From: Sutcliffiella horikoshii DSM 8719
Lineage (GTDB): Bacteria > Bacillota > Bacilli > Bacillales > Bacillaceae_I
Length of the DNA stretch: 64,000 nt
Reading direction: 5' to 3'
Assembly: GCA_001648575.1 (NCBI GenBank)
Contig: LQXN01000057.1
Span: forward strand, 62,001 to 126,000
Shown here: positions 12,010-57,725 of the stretch, one piece after another
How positions within the stretch are numbered: position 1 is the stretch's first letter
Layout of the letters: every line of letters begins with the position of its first letter
The notes under the pieces: model-generated
Told to the model about the DNA's origin: nothing
Seen by the model: the letters and a program-made list of their open reading frames with translations, nothing else
Databases searched by the model: none
Made by a program: the position numbers and the translations under genes

Positions 12010-12084
12010 GGTAGGTAGATAGATACGGCGACAGCATTGAGGTATTTTGTAGAATTTTGGCGAACGGCATGTATTTTGTTTGTT

Positions 12085-12185
12085 TGGAAAATAAAATGTG
12101 CTGTTTGGAAAGTAAATGTGGTCCAATGGAAAGTAAAATGAGCGGTATGGAAAATAAATATGGCCCAACGGAAAGTAAAACGTAA
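12085..12185. repeat. 21-bp tandem repeat array, about five units
   Basis: The core TGGAAA(A/G)TAAA recurs at 12085, 12106, 12127, 12148 and 12169 (first C for T), with exact 21-base spacing and drifting flanks. It lies between two convergent genes. Stop codons interrupt the forward reading, so it is not coding there. The exact two-helical-turn phase is notable. Arrays of the same period but different sequence occur at 42605 and 50624. Confidence 0.8.
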
Positions 12186-12247
12186 GGTACGTGAAATAAC
12201 CTATAGCAAATCCTTAATCTACAAGCAAATAATGCCTGATAATAACG

Positions 12248-31494: not shown

Positions 31495-31956
31495 TTAACT
31501 TAGCTTATATATAAATATCTCCTCATCAAACTCCTCATCCACTAATCCTGTATTTTCAAATCCATGTCGTTCGTAAAAAGCTTTTGCTCCTGGATTGTCT
31601 TTTGTAACGCTAAGGACAATTTCGCCAACTTCAAAGTGCTCGGAGATTAATTCAATCGTTAGTTGGAGAAAAGCAGCACCAAGGCCTCTTCCTTGTAAGT
31701 TAGCGTCAATCATAAATCGATCAAGCCAAATATAGCGTTCTACTTTATTCTCAGCACCAATCATGACAAAGCCAACCGCTATGCCGCCATCAAACAACCC
31801 ATAGCATTTCCAATCGTGTTTTCTGTCATATACAGATTCCAAGATGGAAATCTCATTTTTTTCGATGAATTTTTGTTGACTGTCCGCAACTTTAAGAGCG
31901 ATGATATCCCGCCAGTTTGAAGAGTCCACTGGGTGTATTGTTAATGAATGTTGCAT
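31495..31956 (-). CDS. GNAT family N-acetyltransferase
   Basis: 153 residues. The acetyl-CoA loop is NLQGRGLGAAFL (~92-103), preceded by the strand IWLDRFMID and followed by VTKDNPGAKAFYERHGFEN. The layout resembles diamine/spermidine acetyltransferases of the BltD/PaiA group; substrate not defined. It has AGGTAAAAC before the ATG, is monocistronic, and lies next to the first 52-bp repeat array. Confidence 0.85.
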   Translation of the reverse strand: MQHSLTIHPVDSSNWRDIIALKVADSQQKFIEKNEISILESVYDRKHDWKCYGLFDGGIAVGFVMIGAENKVERYIWLDRFMIDANLQGRGLGAAFLQLTIELISEHFEVGEIVLSVTKDNPGAKAFYERHGFENTGLVDEEFDEEIFIYKLS

Positions 31957-32015: not shown

Positions 32016-32311
32016 TTTCCCTCTCAGCATTGTCTTCATCCACCTTATGAAGACAGTGCCATGTCTTTCGTTTCCCTCTCAACATTGTCTTCATCCACCT
32101 TATGAAGACAGGACCATGCTTGTTTCCCTCTCAACATTGTCTTCATCCACCTTGTGAAGACAGTGCCTTGCTTGTTTCCCTCTCAGCATTGTCTTCATCC
32201 ACCTTGTGAAGACAGTACCATGCTTGTTTCCCTCTCAACATTGTCTTCATCCACCTTGTGAAGACAGTACCATGCTTGTTTCCCTCTCAGCATTGTCTTC
32301 ATCCACTCTAC
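32016..32311. repeat. 52-bp tandem repeat array, about 5.6 units, hairpin in each
   Basis: Units begin TTTCCCTCTCA(A/G)CATTG at 32016, 32071, 32123, 32175, 32227 and 32279; spacing is 55 then 52 four times. Each has TGTCTTCAT, a 7-nt CCACCTT loop and (A/G)TGAAGACA, a 8-9 bp hairpin. The units are nearly identical over the full 52 bases, so there are no CRISPR-like spacers. 52 is not a multiple of 3, so the frame is not kept. It lies immediately downstream of the NERD gene. Confidence 0.92.
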
Positions 32312-32341
32312 AATCGAAAAACACCCGATACAAGTACTAAT

Positions 32342-33256
32342 TCAAAACTCATAATGCCTCCATTGATGTTCTCCCTTACAATTCATGTGCCTCTTTAAAG
32401 TTCGCCCAATAGTGCGCTTGGGTAGTACTTTATCACACCACTCAAAAATGGTATTTGTGGTAATTATCATTTCAGGAAACAGCAACATAAGTTCTTTCAC
32501 ATTCCTCATTATGAGATCTTCTGATAATTCTTTCTCCCCACAACTTTTACAAATACATTTCGTACCTTTAACTGTAATCTCATAAGAACCACAATTCCTA
32601 CATATATTACCTTTTTTAAGATCATGATATTGATAGGAAGGAGGGATATATAAAGGTGGATCCTGAATATGAAGGGAAATTAATTGATTGGCTAATGTCT
32701 TGTGTTCATTAGTGATTTTTTGTGATGTGGATTGTACTTTTTGAAGGAATCTATTAATTTGCCCTGGCAAAAGGAAAGGCTTATTAATTGGTGTTTGGTA
32801 GAGGGTAAATTCAGGATTGATGAAAACAATCAATGCTTGAATAGTTAATTTGCAACCGAGATTATGGAGTAGCTGGCGTAGCAATGATTCACTTCTGTGT
32901 AATTGAATTAATGGGTTATTTACTTCTGAATTTGGAGGTACTTGCGTGTATAAGCGGTCTGAATCGTAGAAATAATCACCTTCAAAGTTCTTGACCTCAA
33001 ATAAGTAAACAGTATCGGGGAGAATAATTAGAGTGTCAATTTGAAAGATGTTTCTATTATTAGATAGTAGTAAATCGTTGAGGATTAGGCAATCGGATCT
33101 AATTGTTGCTGTCAAACTATCAAATTGCAGTTCTCCTTCATAGCCTTTTTGTAGGTTGAATAGATGCTTCCTTTCTTTTCCTGATAACTTTACACGTAAG
33201 TTTAAATATTGGTATATCTGCAATTCACGTGGCATGATTCGAGATTTATATAACAT
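32342..33256 (-). CDS. NERD-domain (PD-(D/E)XK nuclease-like) protein with zinc ribbon
   Basis: 304 residues. The NERD fold has all four expected residues: Glu42 in GYEGEL, Asp74 in QIDTLII, Glu87 and Lys89 in LFEVKNF. Near 208-230 there is a four-Cys zinc ribbon (CRNCGS, CKSCG), then a basic helical C-terminus. It is probably a DNA nuclease or DNA-associated enzyme. AAAGGAG lies 7 nt before the ATG at 33256; the longer frame to 33298 has no ribosome site. The gene is alone and both ends face 52-bp repeat arrays. Confidence 0.82.
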   Translation of the reverse strand: MLYKSRIMPRELQIYQYLNLRVKLSGKERKHLFNLQKGYEGELQFDSLTATIRSDCLILNDLLLSNNRNIFQIDTLIILPDTVYLFEVKNFEGDYFYDSDRLYTQVPPNSEVNNPLIQLHRSESLLRQLLHNLGCKLTIQALIVFINPEFTLYQTPINKPFLLPGQINRFLQKVQSTSQKITNEHKTLANQLISLHIQDPPLYIPPSYQYHDLKKGNICRNCGSYEITVKGTKCICKSCGEKELSEDLIMRNVKELMLLFPEMIITTNTIFEWCDKVLPKRTIGRTLKRHMNCKGEHQWRHYEF

Positions 33257-33385
33257 TGCACACTCCTTTCTGTATAAATATATCAGAACAGTTATCATTA
33301 GTGTGAATTTTTAATATATTTTTATTTTGAATTTAATATTATGAAGATATGATATGTCTAAATCAGACTCATGAAGGTAATTCTT

Positions 33386-33540
33386 TGCTCACTTTTTCAT
33401 TGAGATTGTCTTCATATCGCATTTAAAGACAATCCCATGCTAATTTCTTTATTAAGATTGTCTTCATCACACTCGTGAAGACAATCCCACTCACTTTTTC
33501 TTAACGAGATTGTCTTCAACTACCAAGAGTGCTTTCAATA
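33386..33540. repeat. 52-bp tandem repeat array, three units, upstream of NERD gene
   Basis: GATTGTCTTCA occurs at 33404, 33456 and 33508, exactly 52 bases apart, each (the last imperfect) followed by a loop and (T)GAAGACAATC. Pyrimidine-rich CACTTTTTC-type leaders separate the hairpins. The sequence differs from the 32016 array, but the period, the core TGTCTTCA...TGAAGACA and the layout are the same. Confidence 0.88.
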
Positions 33541-33557
33541 AAGACCAAACTATAACC

Positions 33558-34496
33558 TCAGACCCCCTTATTTACTGCAACAGAACGCTTCAAACGCCAC
33601 CCTCTCATCAACGTATACGTATAAATCCCTAGCGCCATCCAAATACACGCAAAAGCTATAAGGTGAGCATCAGTAAATGGTTCATGAAACAAATACACAC
33701 CCATGATCAACTTGATTGTCGGGGCAAAATACTGCAGCAAACCGACCATAGAAAGCGGTATCCTCTTCGCTCCACTTGCAAATAAAAGCAACGGGATGGC
33801 TGTGACCACACCGGACAGCAACAGAAGCAATGTGATCCCGACTTCTCCACCAAACGCTCCGCCAACGCCACTCACTCCATGCACATAGCTCAAAAACAAT
33901 AATGCAAATGGTGTAATCAAAAGCGTTTCAATCGCAAGCCCGACCAGCGCTCCCACCTGGACCATTTTCTTAATGAGTCCATAAAAAGCAAAGCTCAATG
34001 CAAGCATGATCGCCACCCATGGAAAGGTACCGAAGCTGAAAGTCAGCACAAGTACCCCGGCTCCTGCTAGAATAATAGACACTGTCTGAAGGCCAGACAG
34101 TTTTTCCTTTAAAACGATGACAGCAAGTAAAATGCTTACAAGCGGGTTGATGTAGTAACCAAGGCTCGCTTCGATGACCCGGTCGGCGTTTACCGCCCAA
34201 ATATAGAGCCCCCAGTTAATGCTGATGAAAATGGAGGCAAGACTGATACCGATCAGACGCTTGCGGTTTTTTATAAGTGCCTTGAGCTCCCCTGCAAAAG
34301 AAGGGATTTTCCGTAACGCAGCCAAAATAAGCAGCATGAACACAAGCGACCAGACAATCCTGTGCGCAAGGATCTCACCAGCTGGGACACCGTCCACCAT
34401 TTTCCAAAATAAAGGAAGAACCCCCCATAATATGTAGGATAAGCCCGCAAAGACAACTCCTATTCCAAACTCCCTGTTTTCTGATGTTTGATTCAT
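33558..34496 (-). CDS. rarD: RarD-type EamA (DMT) permease
   Basis: 312 residues, ten hydrophobic segments in two EamA repeats. The start region GIGVVFAGLSYILWGVLPLFWK and the LAHRIVWSL segment are typical of RarD, named for chloramphenicol sensitivity in E. coli; transported compound unknown. GAGG lies 8 nt before the ATG at 34496; a frame to 34565 is also open but lacks a ribosome site. Confidence 0.88.
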   Translation of the reverse strand: MNQTSENREFGIGVVFAGLSYILWGVLPLFWKMVDGVPAGEILAHRIVWSLVFMLLILAALRKIPSFAGELKALIKNRKRLIGISLASIFISINWGLYIWAVNADRVIEASLGYYINPLVSILLAVIVLKEKLSGLQTVSIILAGAGVLVLTFSFGTFPWVAIMLALSFAFYGLIKKMVQVGALVGLAIETLLITPFALLFLSYVHGVSGVGGAFGGEVGITLLLLLSGVVTAIPLLLFASGAKRIPLSMVGLLQYFAPTIKLIMGVYLFHEPFTDAHLIAFACIWMALGIYTYTLMRGWRLKRSVAVNKGV

Positions 34497-34678
34497 GGCA
34501 GTACCTCTTTTATCTAGTCTATTTTCGTAAGCTTTGTTACTTTTACGAATAGTTGATTCAGCCATTATATGCTTTACTGTCGGGCTCTTTTCCCTTAACC
34601 CTAAAGAAAAGATCCTGAATGTTTGATATTAGTTTAGTAGGGCTTAGAAAAAATTGCAACGATATTGTTTCGGGATAC

Positions 34679-42600: not shown

Positions 42601-42604
42601 TTTC

Positions 42605-42661
42605 TTGAATACTTCAGTGGATTTATTGTATAATTCAGCAGTTTTATTGAATACTTCAGTA
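42605..42661. repeat. 21-bp tandem repeat array, three units
   Basis: TTGAATACTTCAG at 42605, TTGTATAATTCAG at 42626 and TTGAATACTTCAG at 42647, exactly 21 bases apart. Same core and period as the array at 50624. Confidence 0.8.
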
Positions 42662-42738
42662 AACTTATCAGCAGCTTTTTCATTACTTTTACCCTTCATT
42701 TAAATAATGTAAGTTTTTCCTGAAGGAGACACCATAAT

Positions 42739-50536: not shown

Positions 50537-51045
50537 GAAGAGTGGGCCACTAGAGAGGAACTCGTGGGATTTAGGGGTTATTTAATGTAAATATATGGGT
50601 TGCGGTCAATTTGAACGTGTTTATTGAATAATTCGGAGTGTTTATTGTATACTTTTGCAGCTTTAATGTATAATTCTTCTGTTTTATTGAATAATTCACT
50701 TCTCTTATCTGATTTGGCCCCTTTCTGGACAGCCTCAATGGTAATCGCTCTGCTCCTCTGATGTTATACCAATAAACCTTTCGAGATTAGTCGATATATG
50801 TCATAGTCTTCTTATTCCTAATCCAATGAAGTTGAAAAAAGTTTTATTCAAACGTTTGATTAAAAATAATTATCTTAAAAAATCATATGCCTAACTATCT
50901 CTATTAGACCTTAAAAGTCAATCTAGAAAAAACTAGTTTCAAAAACCAATTTTCACTATTAAAACAGTCTTTCCCAAACAAAATCCCCATACTAAAACTA
51001 ATCCACCAACAAATGGGCACTATACATACTATTGGAGGGATTAAC
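50537..51045. other. Long AT-rich spacer with tandem repeat and palindrome
   Basis: Apart from the 21-bp array at 50624-50700, it holds a 12-bp palindrome TCAAACGTTTGA (50848-50859) and the upstream region of the DUF3889 gene. No ORF with a ribosome site seen. Confidence 0.5.
50624..50704. repeat. 21-bp tandem repeat array, four units
   Basis: TTGAATAATTC (50624), TTGTATACTTT (50645), ATGTATAATTC (50666) and TTGAATAATTC (50687), exactly 21 bases apart, each preceded by TTTAT or TTTA. Closely related to the array at 42605. Confidence 0.8.
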
Positions 51046-56867: not shown

Positions 56868-57725
56868 TCACCCTGCCTTGGTATACCTGCAAACAGGATA
56901 TCCACTGCAGCCATAAAACAAACCAAATTTGCCTTTCTTAATTGCGAGTTGGCCACCACATTTAGGGCATATTTCGGCACTTTTATGGATATCTGACTGA
57001 TGCTTAGTCACCGGCTTATGCACAAGGTTTTCCCGTTTCTTATCTTTTATCGCATCCACATGTCTTCTATAAATAAGTTTCTTTTGTTTTCTATCTTTTA
57101 TAATCAATTGTTCTAAAGCCTTGTTAATATTCTGCAATTCTTCCTCACTTACTTGACGCTCTAAAGACTCTTTTATAACCTTGTTCAGCTGGGGAATTTG
57201 TATAACCCTTGCCGTGCTGAAATCATCTTCAAATTTCAACGTAGATCTGCTTGAGAAAGCAACAACTGATTGAAAATTATGATGTTCTCCAAGGTATCCC
57301 CTCAAAGCTTGAATATGTCCATAATTCTGCCAAATTGGGTTAAAAAATTTCTCTTTCCGCTTATAGATCACCTGTGTCCAATGACGCTGGTTCTCCTTCC
57401 CGAAAATCCATCCATCATAATGCTTTGTTTCGATAACAAAGATTCCTGTCGGAGATGTTACCACATGATCCACTTGGGCAGTTCCGCCTTTTTCATTTGG
57501 TACATATAAATCATGATACACCTTAAACAAAGGACCCAACTTCTCTAATTCCCTGTTCACAGCCCTCTCCCCAATTGCCCCTTTTATCCGTGGAAAGTTG
57601 ACTCTTAAATAAATCATTCCTGCAAAAAGGAAAAACGGCAAAACTATTGGAACTATCGCAAACAATAATGGAAATAAAATAATAATTCCTATTGATTTAA
57701 CTACGGCCTTCTGCAGATTTGACAA
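56868..57725 (-). CDS. Membrane-bound NERD-domain protein with topoisomerase-type zinc finger
   Basis: 285 residues. One or two membrane helices (~8-40), then a NERD nuclease-like domain with Glu53 (GAIGERA), Asp86 (AQVDHVV), Glu99 and Lys101 (VIETKHYDGW), and a C-terminal four-Cys topoisomerase zinc finger (CPKCGG...YGCSGYPVCRY, ~255-280). TTG start with GAGGTG upstream. It is a different subfamily from the 32342 gene and has no repeat arrays nearby. A nuclease role at the membrane is possible. Confidence 0.85.
   Translation of the reverse strand: MSNLQKAVVKSIGIIILFPLLFAIVPIVLPFFLFAGMIYLRVNFPRIKGAIGERAVNRELEKLGPLFKVYHDLYVPNEKGGTAQVDHVVTSPTGIFVIETKHYDGWIFGKENQRHWTQVIYKRKEKFFNPIWQNYGHIQALRGYLGEHHNFQSVVAFSSRSTLKFEDDFSTARVIQIPQLNKVIKESLERQVSEEELQNINKALEQLIIKDRKQKKLIYRRHVDAIKDKKRENLVHKPVTKHQSDIHKSAEICPKCGGQLAIKKGKFGLFYGCSGYPVCRYTKAG

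Follow-up and report, generated by a model that had tools for sequence, protein, structure and literature searches.

NERD-domain nuclease genes of Bacillus-like bacteria adjoin 52-bp inverted-repeat arrays: a proposed repeat-binding nuclease with cognate chromosomal sites

A solitary gene for a NERD-domain nuclease lying between two tandem arrays of hairpin repeats raises the question of whether the enzyme and the repeats belong together. This gene lies in the window (the whole 64,000-nucleotide stretch of Sutcliffiella horikoshii DSM 8719 DNA that was analysed; host genome 4.68 Mb), and the features are listed in Table 1. The original prediction placed 52-bp arrays of hairpin units on both sides of the gene and inferred a functional link, possibly as a selfish or defence unit. 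Both arrays were recovered. TRF called the 3' array, about 30 bp from the end of the gene, at 32016-32306 with a period of 52, 5.5 copies and 93% matches; the 5' array, which was not called by TRF at a score of 50, is made up of partial units and a pair of palindromes spaced 52 bp apart, with 1 and 0 mismatches. The hairpin motif was likewise borne out: TGTCTTCA-loop-TGAAGACA occurs 21 times genome-wide and its reversed control 0 times, so the motif lies beyond chance. The same kind of array also adjoins unrelated genes elsewhere in the genome.

Table 1. Features of the window at and around the NERD locus, and one array of a second repeat class
Feature	Position	Strand	Basis or remark
3' array of the NERD gene, type TGTCTTCAT-N7-ATGAAGACA	32016..32311	.	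TRF and palindrome search
5' array, about 3 degenerate units, same period, other interior	33386..33540	.	
NERD nuclease gene, 304 aa	32342..33256	-	Pfam PF08378 E 6e-18, 21-protein alignment, AlphaFold2 model
rarD-like EamA transporter gene	33558..34565	-	site marker
GNAT acetyltransferase gene, other flank	31495..31956	-	ordinary neighbour
21-bp-spaced TGGAAARTAAA array	12081..12199	.	between two convergent genes

A scan of the window gave three terminator-like sites against 0.9 expected, two of them inside the array on the strand opposite the NERD gene, and promoter-like sites at chance level. Rfam returned one microRNA match, also at chance level. An intrinsic terminator was considered for the repeat and rejected, because the element in the rho region comes after a separate terminator-like hairpin (by eye). 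In genome G000, the start of one contig (G000:C38:1-6000) repeats the yitT region of a second (G000:C14), likely an assembly break or a duplication at an array, and a third contig (C47) also starts within an array.

The Pfam NERD match to the encoded protein is full-length (65.8 bits against a curated cut-off of 22.1) and covers residues 37-146, and a zinc ribbon follows at C219, C222, C236 and C239. In an alignment of 21 proteins, E42, D74, K89 and the four cysteines show no variation and E87 reaches at least 90% conservation, in agreement with the claim that the nuclease residues are intact. The AlphaFold2 model (mean pLDDT 91.4, pTM 0.83) is predicted to end with three helices and small strands, and by eye we read this segment of the model, about residues 245-304, as winged-helix-like. 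Foldseek matches were weak (TM to query mostly 0.2-0.3) and mostly to restriction-like nucleases; they included R2 retrotransposon proteins, the nickase Nt.BspD6I, Bax1 and Can2/Card1. Pfam found no transposase domain in the protein, finding NERD instead. The type-1 NERD gene, the kind present at the window locus, adjoins a rarD-like EamA gene in 5 of 16 genus genomes. A second NERD gene in the window (56868-57725) encodes a topoisomerase-type zinc finger; TRF called no array beside it, and it serves as an internal negative control.

A profile of the 21 proteins, blind to arrays, was used to scan a genome collection, and the best 80 of 476 relatives, which carry 26 genus names, were combined with 22 genus loci into a survey set of 102 loci. 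Eight of the 30 genus loci were left out of this set, seven being present under other numbers and one (L065) uncounted. With an array defined as a repeat of period 49-54 bp within 1.2 kb 3' of the NERD gene, 97 of the 102 loci carry one, or 94 of 99 when duplicates (three proteins) are removed; homologues mostly free of arrays, the outcome that the original prediction had named as its refutation, were thus not found. Of the 97 arrays, 82 have a period of 52 and 13 a period of 51; the array starts at a median of 62 bp past the NERD stop codon, and copy number ranges from 1.9 to 22.9 in this same set. Three of the five misses reach a contig end 44-179 bp past the stop codon, L162 has degenerate units by eye, and L179 has a NERD gene with no array within 1.2 kb 3'. 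Among comparison genes of at least 150 aa on two contigs, 73 of 974 have an array; the Fisher p value of 7e-84 for NERD loci against these genes is indicative only, because related loci are not independent. The same arrays beside unrelated genes had been the other refuting outcome named, and this one was partly seen: such arrays do occur, but they are rarer per gene and match the types of the resident NERD genes. The original prediction is partly supported, and the gene-array link that it inferred proves strong. Bounding by repeats on both sides holds at the window but is not general, as TRF called an upstream array at 8 of the 102 loci (the degenerate upstream array of the window is not among them).

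All 30 genus loci (16 genomes, homologues of 37-100% identity) have a flank array with a period of 51-53, and the unit sequences are unrelated between clades. A CRISPR array consists of identical repeats with unique spacers; this candidate was rejected because the units of a NERD-adjacent array resemble one another over their full length, typically with 80-95% matches. At the 69 loci with both neighbours called, the genes directly on either side make up 62 different pairs, so there is no constant partner gene. This variety fits the suggestion of a selfish unit, while the maintained appearance of dispersed half-sites, described below, speaks against it. At two loci (L054 and L063) the NERD gene has an internal stop codon and the array is short (3.3-3.5 copies) and less regular (76-79% matches); gene and array are possibly decaying together in these two cases.

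Dispersed elements in related genomes reveal the natural unit as a 45-bp inverted unit, ATGAAGACA...TGTCTTCAT, with a 7-bp linker. Twenty dispersed loci of genomes G004 and G006 were picked by exact match to the inner palindrome, with a unit finder that allowed at most 3 mismatches per unit. Eighteen of them are exactly 149 bp long, that is, three 45-bp units and two 7-bp linkers; one of the others has 8 units (414 bp) and one has 2 called units. The half-sites are nearly invariant, and the interior varies and is rich in A/T at its centre. Part of the inner conservation follows from how the loci were picked; the outer half-sites lie outside the selecting pattern. At position 10, the base adjoining the half-site, 30 of 40 possible pairs across the linker are complementary (13.2 expected), as are 27 of 61 inside the unit (19.8 expected).

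A census of arrays was taken on two contigs, G004:C12 (619 kb) and G006:C7 (766 kb), in which genes were called crudely and arrays were typed by motif, the type-3 motifs having been taken by eye from arrays beside type-3 NERD genes and elsewhere on the two contigs. The first motif-search controls gave 0 and 0 matches; a second control (6 and 9 matches) was left unused, as the mismatches permitted in the search make it coincide with the real motif. On the first contig, 26 merged arrays have a period of 49-54; three types account for eight each, and two are untyped. The second contig holds 24, with 22 typed and two untyped; one untyped array lies within an ORF on each contig. In all, 47 arrays of this period are intergenic, and 45 of them were typed to the three kinds that adjoin resident NERD genes. 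All three types adjoin NERD genes fetched from the two genomes. None of the 46 intergenic arrays with two called neighbours lies in a gap between divergent genes, compared with 145 of 616 gaps longer than 100 bp (p 4e-6). A 400-kb sample of a further genome (G011) held two 52-bp arrays that by eye resemble the array of its own NERD gene at L062.

Conservation was measured, for one array type, on the eight orthologous 149-bp pairs whose two members were of the same length and both passed the unit search. Their 9-bp half-sites are identical at 420 of 432 positions (97%), comprising 142 of 144 in outer and 278 of 288 in inner half-sites. Beyond the half-site, identity is 33/48 at position 10, 47/48 at position 11 and 105/144 at positions 12-14; the core (282/408) and linkers (68/112) are less conserved, with most non-half-site positions at 61-73%, and the 80-bp flanks are identical at 900 of 1381 positions (65%). 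Because half-sites stand so far above most other positions and the flanks, the dispersed sites seem to be maintained, which indicates selection on the half-sites or active rewriting of them. When the genomes are compared, pairing of the arms at position 10 is not clearly conserved (7 changed pairs, 1 fully compensated), so the hairpin is uncertain as the working form. The two outermost half-sites of the 149-bp element showed no clear co-variation by eye.

Turnover was assessed in orthologous intervals. For 23 of 28 arrays or elements of G004:C12 an interval exists in G006:C7, with the same type in 17, two types in one and no array in 5 (two of these five arrays being untyped); the 5 without an interval are all type 2. 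In the reverse direction, 15 of 18 intervals have the same type, 2 another call and 1 none, and 8 arrays of G006:C7 have no orthologous interval. All 11 type-1 arrays of G004:C12 have an interval in G006, each with a type-1 array; both interval-bearing type-2 arrays are missing there, as is one G004 NERD gene with its array (an interval of about 1.9 kb against 34 bp). One G006 array corresponds to an apparent single unit in G004. No clean target-site duplication was seen at three sites checked, one of which is a single remaining unit, not an empty site.

Unit sequences differ between NERD clades, and across 94 loci their similarity tracks the C-terminal part of the protein more than the nuclease part. 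The Mantel correlation of repeat similarity with C-terminal distance is r -0.54; the partial correlation is -0.35 (p 0.001) for the C-terminal part given the N-terminal part and -0.11 (p 0.004) for the reverse. This co-variation indirectly suggests that the zinc-ribbon/C-terminal part may recognise the repeat. Counts of dispersed palindromes follow the resident NERD array type in three tests, with exceptions. For the GGTCTTCAT type, 15-40 palindromes occur in each of the four genomes in which exact copies are present in the fetched NERD array, compared with 0-3 in 46 other genomes (p 1e-5), although L143 (0) and L171 (2), among those 46, are loosely of that type. The GTCCTTCAT type shows a weaker trend (p 0.007), with genomes of that type having as many as 214 dispersed copies; two such genomes have no palindromes beyond the adjacent array, and L126, L136, L175, L186 and L194, whose fetched NERD array is of another type, have 13-30. 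In Sutcliffiella, the type-1 motif has 21, 24, 46, 21 and 9 copies where a type-1 NERD gene (at least 69% identity) is present and 0-13 copies in 11 genomes where it is absent (p 0.002); two of the latter have 11 and 13. Other paralogues or lost genes could explain these exceptions, and the cognate pairing of NERD gene with array type is well supported.

The pairing suggests that the enzyme and these DNA sites are partners in a way hitherto undescribed, and we propose a repeat-binding nuclease with cognate chromosomal sites. The window locus is probably a member of a large enzyme-repeat family in which a NERD nuclease would recognise its own arrayed half-sites; the system resembles RAYT-REP, but its nuclease is unrelated. 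Recognition of the short half-site would fall to the NERD protein with its zinc ribbon and winged-helix-like C-terminal segment, and the half-sites are arranged as 45-bp inverted units with 7-bp linkers to give the 52-bp period. A DNA helical turn is 10.4 bp; 52 bp is about five turns, so half-sites of one orientation would share one face of the DNA. One array stands just 3' of the NERD gene, with more of the same type at the 3' ends of unrelated genes. The protein likely binds the arrays, probably as an oligomer, and such binding would be the simplest cause of both the co-variation and the half-site conservation. Less certainly, the nuclease may nick or cut palindromes in the arrays, and repair with unequal recombination may lengthen, homogenise and occasionally seed them. 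Old sites might persist because the complexes bound there are useful to the cell, for instance in organising the chromosome or where transcription ends.

Several other explanations were weighed against this one. A generic minisatellite, with 52-bp arrays common and NERD genes merely near some of them, would fit the abundance of arrays (26 called in 0.62 Mb and 24 in 0.77 Mb), but the excess at NERD loci over other genes (97/102 versus 73/974) and the agreement of array type with protein make it practically negligible. It is doubtful, though a serious alternative, that the arrays serve chiefly as nucleoprotein sites of benefit to the host, with NERD as a DNA-binding protein for structure or surveillance whose nuclease activity is secondary. 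The 11 of 11 matched type-1 arrays, half-sites conserved while the rest drifts like the flanks, and the empty divergent gaps (0/46) agree with this; the loss of both interval-bearing type-2 arrays and of one NERD-array segment in G006 does not, and a core host function would not predict array types that differ between species.

An RNA-based explanation is unlikely. The array would be a transcribed 3' extension of the NERD mRNA, its hairpins binding and restraining the nuclease as in type III toxin-antitoxin systems, with dispersed copies as by-products. The closeness of array and stop codon (median 62 bp, best 80 of 476 plus 22 genus loci), the folding of the window 3' array (z -3.2 against shuffles) and the position-10 co-variation across the linker speak for it, but tandem palindromes by themselves raise a folding score, the half-sites are also kept at dispersed sites by unrelated genes, and outer unpaired half-sites are as conserved as inner ones (142/144 and 278/288). 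The position of the arrays, mainly downstream, also counts against it. Type III systems such as ToxIN have a nuclease gene beside short tandem repeats, with the array upstream of the toxin gene; the NERD loci share the adjoining array but differ in its near-constant 3' place (upstream 8/102), in the nuclease fold and in having many dispersed arrays. Still less probable is anti-phage defence, in which the nuclease would attack invaders and chromosomal arrays would mark self or hold the enzyme. The NERD domain does occur in the BREX PglW and MADS6 models (weak matches), but neighbourhoods vary and no defence family in PADLOC or NCBIfam was matched over its length, so the predicted defence unit found nothing beyond weak matches through the NERD domain. 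Searches of 50,697 phage records and 72,556 plasmid records yielded no protein match, which counts against both defence and mobile carriage.

We compare the proposed repeat-binding nuclease with described systems. The hallmarks given for RAYT in the accessible part of PMC2817692 are flanking repeats, enzyme-repeat co-evolution and abundance that follows the gene; co-evolution is also stated in the accessible part of PMC8266576. The NERD loci resemble RAYT (TnpA-REP) with REP/BIME/REPIN, as far as the consulted portions of these sources describe it, in a gene flanked by cognate palindromic repeats, in co-evolution (Mantel test, 94 loci), in abundance following the gene (p 0.002, 0.007 and 1e-5, with exceptions) and in dispersed palindromes outside genes. 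They differ in that RAYT is an HUH Y1 transposase related to IS200/IS605, whereas these proteins have NERD, a zinc ribbon and a winged-helix-like end; in their period-locked 52-bp arrays of 45-bp inverted units; and in an array mainly 3', with flanking on both sides being unusual (upstream 8/102). The system stands outside the RAYT/REP family because the defining enzyme differs. The bcr1 elements of the Bacillus cereus group are also dispersed stem-loop repeats in Bacillus, but they are single elements of about 150-170 bp, and the accessible part of PMC2267715 mentions no associated nuclease. SmdA is a membrane protein of staphylococci with a link to cell division; several of the conserved NERD residues are missing from it, and it shares the Pfam NERD domain only in part and is not mentioned with repeats in the available part of PMC9040797, whose authors stated in 2022 that, to their knowledge, the role of NERD in bacteria had never been studied. 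No published description of NERD genes with repeats was found in a search that included the accessible parts of PMC10910872, PMC12802215 and PMC9040797, most subscription journals lying outside it. The partnership would give a partner and a testable role to a common bacterial nuclease domain of largely unknown function, and likewise to a major class of intergenic repeats in Bacillus-like bacteria. It would also show that enzyme-tied dispersed palindromic repeats arose more than once and, if the protein binds the repeats, single genomes would hold several naturally matched protein-site pairs.

Twenty more distant NERD loci (24-37% identity in the matched part, 278-369 aa) were also read. TRF repeats of period 20-21 lie upstream of the start within 150 bp at 11 of the 20 and within 250 bp at 13; three loci have no repeats, one has a 41-bp array downstream, and the remaining loci have repeats further upstream or by eye only. 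Two such motifs recur at 21-bp spacing in their own genome (13 matches each, controls 0). The TGGAAARTAAA array of the window is one of these: a dispersed copy of a repeat that also lies upstream of a different NERD gene in the same genome (C67:241727). This second class needs more care because a 21-bp period can also reflect heptad-coding DNA. A tentative generalisation, for which we would give somewhat less than even odds, is a class of sequence-specific NERD proteins with several paralogues per genome, each with its own repeat: 52-bp 3' arrays in class 1 and 10-11-bp direct repeats every 20-22 bp, mostly upstream, in class 2. Such a class would both write and maintain most non-coding tandem arrays on the chromosomes concerned, as a second, independently evolved counterpart of RAYT-REP based on a restriction-like nuclease and periodic nucleoprotein arrays.

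Two further arrays of 21-bp period (TTTATTGAATA) lie in the window at 42601-42668 and 50620-50697. Read on the opposite strand, they are similar to the TATTCAATAAA repeat that lies upstream of a NERD gene (C58:85556), and they are absent from the exact matches of that 21-bp motif search; small open frames cross them, and coding heptads are possible. The rho-rpmE gap, read in L215-L230, contains another, GGAGCACAGGGCGAAGACTCC-like repeat in several Sutcliffiella (for example L218, L221, L222, L225 and L226) and a 21-bp array instead in L216, and it seems to be a repeat hotspot.
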